The notes under the pieces were generated by a model that was not told where the DNA came from, did not search any database, and worked only from the letters and a program-made list of their open reading frames with translations. From Lactiplantibacillus plantarum (GTDB taxonomy: Bacteria; Bacillota; Bacilli; Lactobacillales; Lactobacillaceae): 64,000 nucleotides of DNA. Positions 10,776 through 28,194 of the stretch are shown here, in pieces (the first letter of the stretch is position 1; each line of letters starts with the position of its first letter). Made by a program: the position numbers and the translations under genes. The DNA is taken from assembly GCF_014131735.1 (NCBI RefSeq), contig NZ_CP039121.1, positions 3,178,937-3,242,936 of the forward strand, given 5' to 3'.

Positions 10776-11240
10776 CTGCACTTCCTCCTAATCTTCATAT
10801 AATTGTTAAGATTTTCACATATCTTGCCATTAACGGTTGTTTGCCGTTTTTCAATATCACCATAACTTAATTTATAAGTCTGTCAATTTAAATTTAGTTG
10901 TAGTTGCTTGAGGTGTCGCAATAAAACCCGTTATATACAGCCTACAGGGACCTGTTTGCGATTAAAAATACCTGAAATTATCATAGCGACTAGTGCCTTT
11001 TATCGGACACTTTTATAAATAGAATTTATAAAAAGCTAAAATAAAGTTTGCCACTTGCTTAATTCTCACTAAAGTTTCGACAACCCGTCAAATTAATCAC
11101 AGCTTGTTATCCTTGTCACAATAGCATTCTGTTGGCTTCGTTAAAATTAACGGTTGTTTTTTCTAGGTAACTATTTATATTGAAAGCGTAAACAATCCGT
11201 GTACTTATCCAACTAAAAAACTAATAAAGGAATGTTAATT
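10776..11240. promoter_or_regulatory. Divergent promoter region of the transporter and flavoprotein reductase
   Basis: A 465-base gene-free region. ATTAACGGTTGTTT occurs twice in direct orientation, at 10829-10842 and 11146-11159, one copy near each gene. TTTATAAA occurs twice (11012-11019 and 11025-11032), forming a dyad of the size LysR regulators recognise. A CcpA-type cre matching WGNAANCGNWNNCW is at 11181-11194. Together they suggest LysR-type activation plus carbon catabolite control. Confidence 0.5.
11181..11194 (+). promoter_or_regulatory. cre box (CcpA operator)
   Basis: TGAAAGCGTAAACA satisfies the degenerate cre consensus at all 14 positions and lies 47-60 bases upstream of the reductase ATG, a position expected to block transcription in the presence of preferred sugars. 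Confidence 0.65.
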
Positions 11241-13610
11241 ATGAAATATATTGCCTTGATTGGTACGGCGGCACAACAGTCTTACAACCGTGAATTATTA
11301 CAATTTATGAAGCATCATTTTAGTCAACGGGCTACCATTGACGTTAATGAAATTACAGGGATTCCCCTTTTTAATGAACCAACTCAAAATCATATCCCGG
11401 CGACCGTTCAAGCCTTAAATGATAAAATTAGCCAGGCCGATGGGGTGATCATCGGGGTACCCGAATACGATCATGCCATTCCGGCCGCACTCAAGAACGT
11501 TATTGAATGGCTTTCTTACCAGCTCCACCCCTTTGCTAATAAACCGGTCATGTTAGTTGGTACTTCCCTTGGCGTACAGGGGACGTGCCGTGCTCAAGGT
11601 GACTTACGCAATATTCTCAATGCGCCCGGAGTTGATGCTCAGGTACTCCCTGGCAATGAATACATGTTAAGCTACGCTGCTAAAGCCTTTGATCAGAATG
11701 GTCAAATGACCGATGCCCCTTCTATCAAGTTCTTGGAACGGTGCTTCGATAACTTTGAAAAATACGTTAAGGCACTCAACGGCACGCCCGCGCTCAATGT
11801 GAACTGGCACGGTAACTACGACGTTATCGTTTTAGGCTTTGGTGGTGCCGGTGCTTCAGCGGCTCGTTTTGCTGCTGATAATGGTGCCCACGTACTAGTA
11901 GTTGATGCGGCACCATTTGGCCGTGAAGGTGGCAACACCCGCTACTCCGCCCAACACGTCGTTACGGGTGAAAGCTTAGATAAACTAACCGCTTATTATC
12001 AAGCACTGGGCGCGCCATTCAGTACCCCTACTAAGACACTCAACGCCTATTTAAGCGGTATGAGTAAAATTCCAGCATATTTTGAAAAATATCTGGGGAT
12101 TAAAGCCGTTAGTTGGAAACATGATATTAAACCCGGTGATGCCGTTGCCATCAAGAAAACCATGGCGGAATACCCAGAACTAGCCGGAAGTGATACGATT
12201 GACTTTGCCCTCGTTCACAAACGTGATAAAGACGCTGCATTATGGAAACTACTCCGGCAAAAAGTCCTTGAACGAGCTGACAATATTGACGTTTGGTTGG
12301 ACTCACGGGCACAACATTTGATCCAAGATCCTAATACTAAAGTGATCCAAGGGGTCCAAATCAAACGGGGCGAACGACTGCTTAATATCCATGCCAATAA
12401 TGGCGTCGTTTTAGCTATGGGTGGTTTTGAAAACAATCCTGAGTTAAAGCAAACCTACTTGCACAGTGATAATCTGACACCACTTGGGACGCTCTATAAC
12501 CGCGGTGATGGTATCAAAATGGCTCAAGAAGTTGATGCCAAAATGTGGCACATGACCAATTATGAATCTCACGGTATCTTACCTGGAATCACCTTCAAAG
12601 AAGACGCCAATGAACGGGGCCGTCAAATTGAACACTGGCCTTTATTAAAGAACGGTAGTATTTTCGTTATCGCTGATGATGGGACACGCTACTTCCAAGA
12701 AGACGCTAAGCACCGTCACGGACACGTTTACACACATGGCTCTTGGCTAATCCCAATGAATAATCAGCACCCCTACTTAATTTTTGATCAAACCCAGTAC
12801 GATGCCTTCAAACAAGAAGAAAGTCAGGCTGGTCAGTTACCGTATCCGAAATTCATGACCAAACTCGTTTCCGCGCCAACGATTGCACAATTGGCCGCCA
12901 AATTGGGAGTTCCTGCTAATAATCTACAACAGACGGTAACTGACTTTAATCACTACACAGAAGTGGGACGTGATTTTGAATTTGATCGTGATCCGCAAAC
13001 GATGCGTCAACTGGACGATGGCCCTTACTATGCCATTGCTACGACCAATGACGTCCTCAACACGCAAGGGGGGCCACAACGCAATGAAAATGCCCAAATT
13101 CTCAACGTCAATGACGAACCTATTCCACACTTGTTCGGCGCTGGTGAATTAGGCGGTATCGTTGCAAACTGCTATCAAGGTGGTGGTAATTTAGCCGAAT
13201 GTTTGATCTTTGGTAAGTTAGCCGGTGAAAACGCTGCTCGTCCAAAGGTAGATAGTGAATCTGTCACCGCCAACGAAGCCAACGGAATTAATGACCTTGT
13301 TGATGGCGAAACAGCATCTAATGTTAAACTGGCCGCTGATCAATATCTCGGCAGTTCTAATGCCGGGCTAGGTGGCAAAGTTATTGTGCGTGTGACTTAC
13401 AACGACCATAAAATTCAAGCAGTCGATGTTATTCAACACCATGAAAGTGAAGATGTTGGTTTAACCGCTATCGATCAAATTCCACAAGAAATTGTGGCAG
13501 CCAACTCCACTAGCGTTGACGCCGTTTCAGGTGCCTCTGCATCTAGCCGAGCTATTAAAGAAGCGGTCCAAAATGCGCTGAAACAAGTCAAAGATTCAGT
13601 CACGAATTAA
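11241..13610 (+). CDS. Three-domain flavoprotein reductase (FMN reductase + fumarate reductase-like FAD domain + covalent FMN-binding domain)
   Basis: About 789 residues. Residues 1-175 are an NAD(P)H:FMN reductase domain (PEYDHAIPAALKN at 74-86). About 195-670 is a fumarate reductase/KsdD-like FAD domain with the Rossmann GFGGAGAS at 199-206. The C-terminal 90 residues are an FMN_bind domain with DAVSGASASS (760-769), the motif to which ApbE attaches FMN. No signal peptide or haem motif is seen, so it is a soluble cytoplasmic NAD(P)H-to-enoate reductase. The architecture resembles L. plantarum hydroxycinnamate reductase. The usual fumarate-binding HTxGG and arginine motifs are replaced (NTQGG; CYQGGGN), so the substrate is probably not fumarate. 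The ATG at 11241 is chosen because AAAGGA would overlap the in-frame ATG at 11232. Confidence 0.85.
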   Translation: MKYIALIGTAAQQSYNRELLQFMKHHFSQRATIDVNEITGIPLFNEPTQNHIPATVQALNDKISQADGVIIGVPEYDHAIPAALKNVIEWLSYQLHPFANKPVMLVGTSLGVQGTCRAQGDLRNILNAPGVDAQVLPGNEYMLSYAAKAFDQNGQMTDAPSIKFLERCFDNFEKYVKALNGTPALNVNWHGNYDVIVLGFGGAGASAARFAADNGAHVLVVDAAPFGREGGNTRYSAQHVVTGESLDKLTAYYQALGAPFSTPTKTLNAYLSGMSKIPAYFEKYLGIKAVSWKHDIKPGDAVAIKKTMAEYPELAGSDTIDFALVHKRDKDAALWKLLRQKVLERADNIDVWLDSRAQHLIQDPNTKVIQGVQIKRGERLLNIHANNGVVLAMGGFENNPELKQTYLHSDNLTPLGTLYNRGDGIKMAQEVDAKMWHMTNYESHGILPGITFKEDANERGRQIEHWPLLKNGSIFVIADDGTRYFQEDAKHRHGHVYTHGSWLIPMNNQHPYLIFDQTQYDAFKQEESQAGQLPYPKFMTKLVSAPTIAQLAAKLGVPANNLQQTVTDFNHYTEVGRDFEFDRDPQTMRQLDDGPYYAIATTNDVLNTQGGPQRNENAQILNVNDEPIPHLFGAGELGGIVANCYQGGGNLAECLIFGKLAGENAARPKVDSESVTANEANGINDLVDGETASNVKLAADQYLGSSNAGLGGKVIVRVTYNDHKIQAVDVIQHHESEDVGLTAIDQIPQEIVAANSTSVDAVSGASASSRAIKEAVQNALKQVKDSVTN

Positions 13611-13640
13611 GCACAATTCAAAGCGAATATGTATTTGAGA

Positions 13641-13673
13641 ACATCACGTAACTCACGAGTTGCGTGATGTTTT
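13641..13673 (+). terminator. Terminator after the flavoprotein reductase gene
   Basis: A 13-base stem with one G-U pair (13641-13653 with 13658-13670) around CACG, followed by TTT. Confidence 0.8.
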
Positions 13674-13689
13674 AGTGTCCCGTGGCGAA

Positions 13690-13705
13690 AGTTTCACGTG
13701 AAACA
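13690..13705. other. parS-like site, one mismatch
   Basis: AGTTTCACGTGAAACA differs from the parS consensus only at the first base. It is intergenic, just past the terminator of the flavoprotein reductase and before the FusB-family promoter. Confidence 0.8.
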
Positions 13706-13776
13706 TTTTAGGACTTACGGTATTTGATTTCCAAATATAAGTTATGCAAGGTGCCTATCAAAACAGACACCATCTA

Positions 13777-13805
13777 TTGCCAAAATCAACAACATCCGTT
13801 ATACT
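13777..13805 (+). promoter_or_regulatory. Sigma-A type promoter of the FusB-family gene
   Basis: TTGCCA (13777-13782), a 17-base spacer and TATACT (13800-13805). Transcription would start near 13812, about 40 bases before the leader ORF. Confidence 0.75.
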
Positions 13806-13850
13806 GTTTATCGCTGTGGCTATAATCGGCCACAAATAAGGAGATGATTA

Positions 13851-13895
13851 ATGATGATGGCATCATTATCTGTACGCAAAAGTGCTGCTCGTTAG
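13851..13895 (+). CDS. Leader peptide of the FusB-family attenuator
   Basis: A 14-codon ORF, MMMASLSVRKSAAR, begins 7 bases after AAGGAG (13838-13843) and ends at TAG 13893-13895. It is followed within two bases by the competing stems that bury the ribosome binding site of the downstream gene. Its position, size and ribosome binding site fit a regulatory leader whose translation, or stalling, controls the downstream gene. A longer in-frame reading of the main gene from 13844 starts directly against the same AAGGAG and is unlikely. Confidence 0.7.
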   Translation: MMMASLSVRKSAAR

Positions 13896-13950
13896 CGACA
13901 CTTTTCGACAGAACCTTTCAGAGAAGTGTCTGGTTTGAATCTGAAAGGAA
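13878..13950 (+). promoter_or_regulatory. Translational attenuator: mutually exclusive stems upstream of the FusB-family gene
   Basis: Four segments can pair in two ways. Segment 1 (AAAAGTG, 13878-13884, inside the leader ORF) pairs with CACTTTT (13899-13905). GACACTTTTC (13897-13906) instead pairs with GAGAAGTGTC (13921-13930). CCTTTCAGA (13914-13922) pairs with TCTGAAAGG (13940-13948), which contains the Shine-Dalgarno AAAGGAA (13944-13950). The second and third pairings share 13921-13922 and interleave, so they exclude each other. In the 1:2 plus 3:4 state the ribosome binding site is hidden; a ribosome held on the leader would free it. This is the classic erm-type layout, read directly from complementarity. 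Confidence 0.72.
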
Positions 13951-13957
13951 TTATATT

Positions 13958-14605
13958 ATGCAACCGACAATTACCACCTATCAATACAGTTATATTACTC
14001 AGCAAGTCAATCAGTTAATTAGCGCCGAGCTCGCCGTAAACGATCTTCAAATTAGAGCCGTCGTACGGGCACAAGCTATCGAGCGGATTACACCACTGCT
14101 TCCTAGTGACGATCCAATCACCGCTAATTTCTTGTCCCATTTGCAAACGGACCGGCTAACCCGTGCCAAGGCCCCTCAACTACTAGAAACGCTAATTCCG
14201 CTAATTATTCCGTTTCCATCCTTGACGACAAAGCAACTAAGCAAGTTGTTTCGCAAGGTCAAAAAGTTGAAGCAGCCTGTATGGTCACAATTAGCATTAC
14301 ACGAATTGACTTACCTAGGTTGGAATGATGGTGGTAACCAGAAAAAGTATTTAGTAATCCCGGATCATGATCGTCTCATTGGTATCCAGGGAGATCTAGC
14401 ACCACAAACAGTCAAGGGCGTCTGTGCCATTTGCCAAACAATTGGCAACGTCGCACTCTTTATGTCGACAACCAAGTCATCTGGTCTCGGACCTTACACG
14501 CGTAACGGCAATTACATTTGTCGTGACAGTAATCAGTGTAATCGACAATTGACCGACCCGCAGGCTTTAGCTGACTTTTTAGCAGTTGTCCGTCCAAAAC
14601 GATAA
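13958..14605 (+). CDS. FusB/FusC-family EF-G-binding protein
   Basis: The 215-residue protein has an N-terminal helical domain. Its C-terminal treble-clef zinc-finger domain has cysteines at 156, 159, 188 and 194 (VCAICQ and YICRDSNQCNRQL), the hallmark of FusB-type proteins. These bind elongation factor G and rescue it from the ribosome stalled by fusidic acid. The ATG at 13958 has AAAGGAA 7 bases upstream. It is transcribed alone behind its own promoter and an apparent leader-peptide attenuator, which supports a drug- or stall-induced ribosome protection function. Whether it confers fusidic acid resistance here is not shown by sequence. Confidence 0.85.
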   Translation: MQPTITTYQYSYITQQVNQLISAELAVNDLQIRAVVRAQAIERITPLLPSDDPITANFLSHLQTDRLTRAKAPQLLETLIPLIIPFPSLTTKQLSKLFRKVKKLKQPVWSQLALHELTYLGWNDGGNQKKYLVIPDHDRLIGIQGDLAPQTVKGVCAICQTIGNVALFMSTTKSSGLGPYTRNGNYICRDSNQCNRQLTDPQALADFLAVVRPKR

Positions 14606-14619
14606 TTAAATAAAAATCA

Positions 14620-14660
14620 GGGCCACCAAGAACAGCTGCAACTGTCGTTCTTGGTGGCCC
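14620..14660. terminator. Bidirectional terminator between the FusB-family gene and queD
   Basis: A perfect 14-bp stem (14620-14633 with 14647-14660). The T-run is on the minus strand side (ATTTTTATTTA), so it chiefly serves the queD-like gene, and may also stop the convergent gene. Confidence 0.85.
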
Positions 14661-14671
14661 CTTCATTAATC

Positions 14672-15040
14672 TTATTCGGTGACACTAATACAATAAGCGC
14701 GTGTTGGCGAATCACTAACTTCAATTCGCAACAGTTGCGCCCCGTTGTCTCGCAATGTCTTATCAATCTTGGTAAACAAATACTCCGTGACATTTTCCAC
14801 AGTTGGATTAACGGTTTTAAATTCAGGTAAGTCGTTCAAAAATTTACCTGACAATTCATCCAACGCTTGATGCAAATTTTTTTCAATATCATAAAAAGCA
14901 ACCATCGCATCAACCGTGTGCAATTCACAAACAATTTCCCACGTGTGCGTGTGCTTTTTTCCGGAGCCAGTTGCCCACCGCACCGCATGGCTAGCGTTGA
15001 CATAGGACTTAATTTTGTACGTTCGTTGTTTAGTCGTCAT
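14672..15040 (-). CDS. 6-pyruvoyl-tetrahydropterin synthase / QueD family protein, catalytic Cys absent
   Basis: The 122-residue protein has the T-fold. Zinc ligand histidines are His18 (NASHAV) and His30/His32 (KHTHTWE). In 6-carboxytetrahydropterin synthases a catalytic cysteine lies four residues before the HxH motif; here that position is Ser26 (ATGSGKK). No queC, queE or queF gene is adjacent. It may therefore be a divergent paralogue rather than a working queuosine enzyme. The start has GGGGAGG 7 bases upstream. Single-gene unit, convergent with the FusB-family gene. Confidence 0.75.
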   Translation of the reverse strand: MTTKQRTYKIKSYVNASHAVRWATGSGKKHTHTWEIVCELHTVDAMVAFYDIEKNLHQALDELSGKFLNDLPEFKTVNPTVENVTEYLFTKIDKTLRDNGAQLLRIEVSDSPTRAYCISVTE

Positions 15041-28121: not shown

Positions 28122-28194
28122 GGGCAGTTAGCTCAGCTGGCAGAGCAACGGACTCTTAATCCGTGGGTCCAGGGTTCGATCCCCTGACTGCCCA
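28122..28194 (+). tRNA. trnK: tRNA-Lys (anticodon CUU)
   Basis: A 73-base cloverleaf. The acceptor stem is GGGCAGT/ACTGCCC and the D arm GCTC...GAGC. The anticodon stem ACGGA/TCCGT has loop CTCTTAA, giving anticodon CUU. The variable loop is GGGTC and the T arm CAGGG-TTCGATC-CCCTG, with discriminator A. The 3' CCA is not encoded. It is transcribed from its own promoter and followed by a terminator. Confidence 0.97.

Follow-up and report, generated by a model that had tools for sequence, protein, structure and literature searches.

The analysed window, a stretch of 64,000 nucleotides, belongs to a genome of the genus Lactiplantibacillus (3.25 Mb in two contigs, referred to as G000) and carries a gene for an EF-G-binding protein of the FusB type. 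FusB itself releases EF-G that has become stuck on ribosomes. The protein encoded in the window possesses both an N-terminal EF-G-binding domain and a C-terminal C4 treble-clef zinc finger, scores above the cut-offs of the two corresponding Pfam families (PF07299, 88.3 bits; PF16571, 35.8 bits), and its C-x2-C motif and later cysteine pair align with those of FusB and Far1. Its closest solved relatives by sequence are 2yb5, a fusidic acid resistance protein, and Far1/FusB (E ~1e-36), in agreement with the family assignment made in the initial annotation of this DNA. It stays far under the NCBIfam cut-offs for FusF (159.2 of 435 bits), FusD (138.8 of 450), FusC (123.1 of 400) and FusB (121.5 of 375), and we therefore refer to it as a homologue rather than as FusB, FusC, FusD or FusF proper. 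A passage of PMC3352095 counts a protein from L. plantarum, CCC77620.1, which we do not equate with the one studied here, among the homologues that either have resistance evidence or come from inherently resistant species. In the neighbourhood of the gene, positions 11232-13610 encode a 792-residue protein that combines FMN reductase, FAD-binding and FMN-binding domains.

Between a sigma-A-type promoter and this gene lies a leader with a short open reading frame of its own (Table 1). The promoter, the 14-codon frame and the ribosome binding site in front of it had all been proposed in the initial annotation and were found at the same positions. The promoter is the better of two promoter-like sites on the + strand within 13600-14700, and its layout recurs in relatives: by eye, all 30 scored lactobacillus leaders have a TTG ahead of TATACT or TACACT at a -35 spacing of 17 or 18 nt. 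Between the promoter and the leader Shine-Dalgarno sequence, the mRNA is predicted to form a 5' hairpin, which in 27 of these 30 leaders exceeds 95% or more of shuffled sequences in stability; lactobacilli preserve this fold despite wide differences in its sequence, and we would guess at a role in mRNA stability. The leader frame opens with three consecutive ATGs, of which most relatives retain the last two only, so that translation may start at the second of them. Terminator-like sites are absent between leader and gene, the sole one within 13600-14700 being located upstream of the promoter (13653-13667), which argues for translational rather than transcriptional control. A search of the window with Rfam at gathering scores returned no family for the leader and a single match elsewhere, a tRNA at 28122-28194.

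Table 1. Features of the leader and the EF-G-binding gene (positions in the window)
Feature	Position	Strand	Basis or remark
Sigma-A-type promoter: TTGCCA (13777-13782), 17-nt spacer, TATACT (13800-13805)	13777-13805	+	10 of 12 consensus matches
5' hairpin of the mRNA (13815-13821/13828-13834), 5' of the leader Shine-Dalgarno	13815-13834	+	centroid fold
Leader Shine-Dalgarno, TAAGGAG	13837-13843	+	sequence
Start-codon hairpin (13849-13856/13861-13868)	13849-13868	+	folding
Leader frame, MMMASLSVRKSAAR and stop, 14 codons	13851-13895	+	start 13851, possibly 13854
Segment 1, within the leader frame; partner 13899-13905	13878-13884	+	folding, alignment
Segment 2; partner segment 1 or segment 3	13897-13906	+	folding, alignment
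Segment 3; 13914-13922 with segment 4, overlapping 13921-13930 with segment 2	13914-13930	+	folding, alignment
Segment 4; overlaps and buries the gene Shine-Dalgarno	13940-13948	+	folding
Gene Shine-Dalgarno, AAAGGAA	13944-13950	+	sequence
EF-G-binding protein gene, FusB-type (EF-G-binding_N and FBP_C zinc finger), 215 aa	13958-14605	+	profile searches

According to the folding predictions, four segments of the leader can pair in two mutually exclusive ways: either segment 1 pairs with segment 2 and segment 3 with segment 4, which closes the ribosome binding site of the gene, or segment 2 pairs with segment 3, which opens it. The free 159-nt RNA is predicted to adopt the closed form, consisting of the 5' hairpin, the start-codon hairpin and the stems 1:2 and 3:4, with the Shine-Dalgarno sequence of the gene hidden. 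At -48.4 kcal/mol it is considerably more stable than its shuffled counterparts (-33.4 kcal/mol on average, sd 3.45), none of 200 being as stable. When the RNA is removed up to 13884, mimicking a ribosome on the leader, 2:3 forms instead; the shortened RNA (13885-13970) is by itself of ordinary stability (z -0.89; 36 of 200 shuffles). Folding of full-length and 5'-trimmed RNA thus recovers the three stems that had been drawn from inspection, namely 1:2, its alternative 2:3, and the stem 3:4 that buries the Shine-Dalgarno sequence.

To follow this switch with a moving ribosome, we folded the RNA beyond the leading edge, set at 16 nt past the P-site base, codon by codon, counting the start codon as index 0. 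Our first measure, the mean unpaired probability over the Shine-Dalgarno core, was replaced by the energy needed to open the ribosome binding site of the gene after it had shown no window for either ermC or the fusB gene of pUB101; both measures are reported here. On the energy measure, opening the site of the window leader is predicted to cost 5.9-6.1 kcal/mol in the free RNA and 1.9-2.4 kcal/mol once the P site has reached codon index 4-10, before the cost climbs from 3.6 to 5.9 kcal/mol toward the stop codon; the predicted fold passes from 3:4 to 2:3 and back to 3:4 as the ribosome advances. The resulting gain of 4.0 kcal/mol compares with 0.0 (sd 1.4) in shuffles, about 2% of 60 being as high. 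On the first measure, the switch score of 0.30 (shuffles -0.10, sd 0.12) was matched by none of 60 shuffles, with the Shine-Dalgarno sequence just ~50-56% unpaired inside the opening window. Of the known attenuators, fusB of pUB101 shows a dip at index 4-9 on the energy measure (2% of shuffles as high), and for ermC of pE194 opening falls at index 7-15; the ermC gain score, which is taken at index 5, 7 and 9, is reached by 10% of shuffles. These calculations, with their shuffle controls, point the same way as the earlier proposal, in which a ribosome halted on the leader would break 1:2, let 2:3 form and thereby free segment 4.

Within the genus, leader and gene occur together. A protein search finds the gene in 13 of 21 genomes, and a covariance model of the leader (R1) matches the same 13 genomes, once in each and adjoining the gene. 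In the wider family, the model matches 9 of 151 genomes under stricter filters that lose weak matches; since it was built on the lactobacillus type alone, it will miss leaders of other types there. The persistence of the short frame in related species had been set in advance as a test that could refute the proposal, and the frame proved intact in all 23 distinct lactobacillus leaders of the window type, with lengths of 12-15 codons. Changes at codon positions 1, 2 and 3 of these frames number 5, 10 and 15, so that third positions are slightly overrepresented.

Covarying stems were the other feature expected of relatives. Across 32 aligned lactobacillus leaders, 12 cells show two-sided changes, compared with 4.9 in shuffles, but all of them lie outside 3:4, 2:3 and the seven-pair core of 1:2. 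These stems show almost no variation, except for two end pairs of 2:3. In this alignment (A1), the start hairpin is incorrectly aligned in four leaders (L022, L024, L029 and L043). Support from covariation for the stems within lactobacilli is weak, because the core stems hardly vary.

Looking beyond the lactobacillus type, we collected 252 loci, of which 249 had a gene start (L145, L148 and L156 were dropped) and 205 a distinct sequence over the last 140 nt upstream; these upstream regions were drawn by similarity and hence are not independent. As a leader we accepted any frame of 10-24 codons that begins with ATG or GTG within 145 nt and follows a Shine-Dalgarno sequence of at least five matching bases. 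By this rule, 113 of 132 distinct Lactobacillales upstream regions have a leader, where shuffles predict 7.8, so that the device, which had been noted to match the attenuators of fusB and erm genes, turns out to be more widespread than initially stated. It is found in 47 of 51 regions from Lactobacillaceae, 43 of 48 from family f3 (Enterococcaceae, with which the Vagococcus locus L053 was grouped), 12 of 13 from f9 and 11 of 20 from f8 (Listeriaceae), as well as in front of fusB of pUB101; the names for f3 and f8 come from identified loci whose sequences are identical or almost so. The same fixed rule returns leaders in 4 of 60 regions from other Bacilli and in none of the 12 from family f17. 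Outside Lactobacillales, the EF-G-binding genes of L213-L224 and of the 60 regions from other Bacilli are thus mostly without a leader and may be regulated otherwise, and L236 (MKKSSLSTAKVLKVTF) seems to be a real exception. Two gene neighbourhoods in the collection deserve mention in their own right: on a Priestia megaterium plasmid (L095), the EF-G-binding gene lies directly 3' of a macrolide family glycosyltransferase gene, and in Enterococcus faecalis (L096) it adjoins efp, the gene for elongation factor P, on the opposite strand.

The encoded peptides differ. They include MMASLFVRKSAAS, MQNVSYLKESGIFR, MIRLVSSSDAVNIC, MILSSLSRVQGFNIN, MTISSYIVRPKN (start only) and MQTKLHCSRLSNNGFRIV, with MLKDITYLKLLDLEYKMLCS in fusB of pUB101, and outside the type shared by Lactiplantibacillus, Levilactobacillus and Secundilactobacillus they bear no obvious likeness to that of the window. 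Dropping one leader without a Shine-Dalgarno sequence for the gene left 117, and the energy profile was scored for 113 of these, a set that excludes the four from other Bacilli and includes fusB of pUB101. A two-sided dip of at least 2.5 kcal/mol is predicted for 83 of these 113 leaders, as opposed to 39 of 565 shuffles: 30 of 47 in Lactobacillaceae, 30 of 43 in Enterococcaceae, 11 of 11 in each of f8 and f9, and the one of fusB. The more demanding pattern of opening at index 2-5 and closing at 8-12 is seen in 64 of the 113 leaders and in 4 of the 565 shuffles. The remaining 30 have no dip; two of them, L040 and L042, belong to the same type as the window leader, and L096, L154 and L158 are further examples. 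Among 42 hand-picked representatives, at most 5% of shuffles are as good for 29, and L049, L096, L154 and L158 lack a dip.

A second recurrent element is a hairpin that encloses the start codon of the leader. Over the 117 leaders, the AUG is paired with a mean probability of 0.82, compared with 0.43 over 128 ordinary gene starts, taken from the window and from loci L014-L062 (Mann-Whitney p 2e-23, relatedness ignored), and with 0.55 in shuffles of the leader set; a pairing probability of at least 0.9 is reached by 57% of leaders and 5.5% of ordinary starts. Taken alone, the window leader is matched by 12% of 40 shuffles, and even the start region of ermCL reaches 0.68 (-3.4 kcal/mol, against a mean of -9.4 in the FusB-type leaders), so the evidence for this hairpin is collective. 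Of 86 distinct leaders, 66 offer the U of the AUG a confidently predicted partner further downstream, and 51 of these 66 place it in one common codon register (offsets 8, 11, 14, 17 and higher); loops that mostly differ by whole codons are what one would expect of a translated frame. The leader of fusB of pUB101 (L093) has a start-codon hairpin in a different register (offset 12). From these predictions, the hairpin is probably a gate that holds leader initiation low. We also considered a possible arrest-peptide motif, as (A/V/T/S)-S-(L/Y/S) recurs among the peptides, but it lies within the 3' arm of the start-codon hairpin, where RNA pairing may explain it.

Given the anatomy of the leader, the family of the gene and the predicted ribosome-dependent switching, which agree with the reading put forward initially, we consider it likely, with a probability of roughly 85%, that this leader is a fusB/erm-type translational attenuator, controlling a chromosomal EF-G-binding gene by way of a leader peptide. 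In untroubled cells, the leader frame would be translated fast or rarely, and the start-codon hairpin would probably limit initiation such that ordinary traffic leaves the switch shut; stems 1:2 and 3:4 would form and the Shine-Dalgarno sequence of the gene would stay buried. A ribosome that lingers around codon index 4-10 (P-site position) would cover segment 1 and leave segment 2 free, 2:3 would form, 3:4 would open and the EF-G-binding protein would be made, which, by analogy with FusB, may free EF-G stuck on ribosomes. A ribosome that reaches the stop codon would cover segment 2 as well, so that 3:4 would reclose and only slow elongation early in the leader would induce the gene. Stalling of ribosomes on the leader by fusidic acid or another EF-G-locking agent would be the presumed trigger, and a change in expression its consequence.

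The simplest alternative is a passive translational brake or a thermometer, in which the ribosome binding site of the gene is merely occluded and translation of the leader is irrelevant. The strong occlusion predicted for the free RNA would suit it, as would a start-codon hairpin that holds leader translation low, but we regard it as improbable: the frame is intact in every distinct lactobacillus sequence, several families have their opening window at matching leader codons, well beyond the level of shuffles, and the predicted profile hardly shifts between 25 and 37 °C (6.5 and 5.9 kcal/mol in the free RNA). There is a still slighter chance that the EF-G-binding protein represses its own synthesis via its leader RNA and that the small frame is incidental. 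Regulation of its own synthesis is one role that a passage of PMC3352095 raises for the nucleic-acid binding of FusB, yet no common leader RNA sequence is seen across genera; sequences and peptides differ, while the ribosome-dependent geometry recurs. Finally, it is hardly credible that there is no separate leader and that translation from an in-frame ATG at 13844 extends the protein at its N-terminus: the frame 13844-14605 is open over 253 aa without a stop, and 19 of the 23 distinct lactobacillus leaders have one of their two other frames open along the full leader, which makes openness by itself poor evidence, but that ATG abuts GGAG, the gene has its own Shine-Dalgarno sequence and ATG (13944-13960), and in 11 of the 13 gene-carrying genomes of the genus the gene frame, at 220-240 aa, does not extend that far upstream, longer ones occurring only in G000 (259) and G011 (288).

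The attenuator reading can be taken a step further. There is no common arrest peptide, yet the opening window (index ~3-10) and the putative start-codon gate recur. It is conceivable, if doubtful, that the leaders of Lactobacillales sense EF-G turnover itself rather than one drug, so that any agent or stress slowing translocation early in the frame would switch the gene on, that the system first served lactic acid bacteria associated with plants and fungi to rescue EF-G and ribosomes, and that plasmid-borne fusB is a captured gene together with its sensor. With the Lactobacillales sequences, one can ask if an attenuator is able to respond to slow translocation in the absence of an arrest peptide, what role the start-codon hairpin plays, and whether plasmid fusB brought its switch from chromosomal genes.

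A 2025 review calls the regulation of FusB homologues unknown in one of its passages (PMC12493156), and a literature search that covered few subscription papers found no paper on the leaders of chromosomal EF-G-binding or FusB-type genes. Here, the Lactobacillales sequences offer a testable answer: leader attenuation with one geometry and many peptides. The mechanism as such is already known from fusB and erm genes; what we add is its spread over the FusB-type genes of Lactobacillales, an early opening window common to unrelated peptides, and the start-codon hairpin. The latter two, together with the 5' hairpin, also go beyond the initial annotation.

The leaders of Levilactobacillus, Enterococcus, Listeria, Vagococcus and related genera resemble that of the window in having a leader frame, mostly a start-codon hairpin and, in the proportion given above, an opening window. 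Among characterized systems, the closest is fusB of pUB101 from Staphylococcus aureus, where fusidic-acid-stalled ribosomes reportedly induce the gene through a leader attenuator (O'Neill and Chopra 2006, as cited in passages of PMC3352095 and PMC12493156). It belongs to the same gene family and shares a leader frame with its own Shine-Dalgarno sequence, the start-codon hairpin and opening at about index 4-9, whereas its leader peptide and segment sequences differ from those of the window. It is also a plasmid-borne resistance gene, while the window gene is chromosomal and from a food lactobacillus, and its attenuation is experimentally supported according to the same passages, while the switch in the window is a prediction from sequence. 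In ermC of pE194, macrolides induce via stalling on the leader, as described in a passage of PMC6685928. Like the window leader, it combines a leader frame with a position-dependent opening of the downstream ribosome binding site; it differs in its later opening (index 7-15), its weaker start fold and its target gene.
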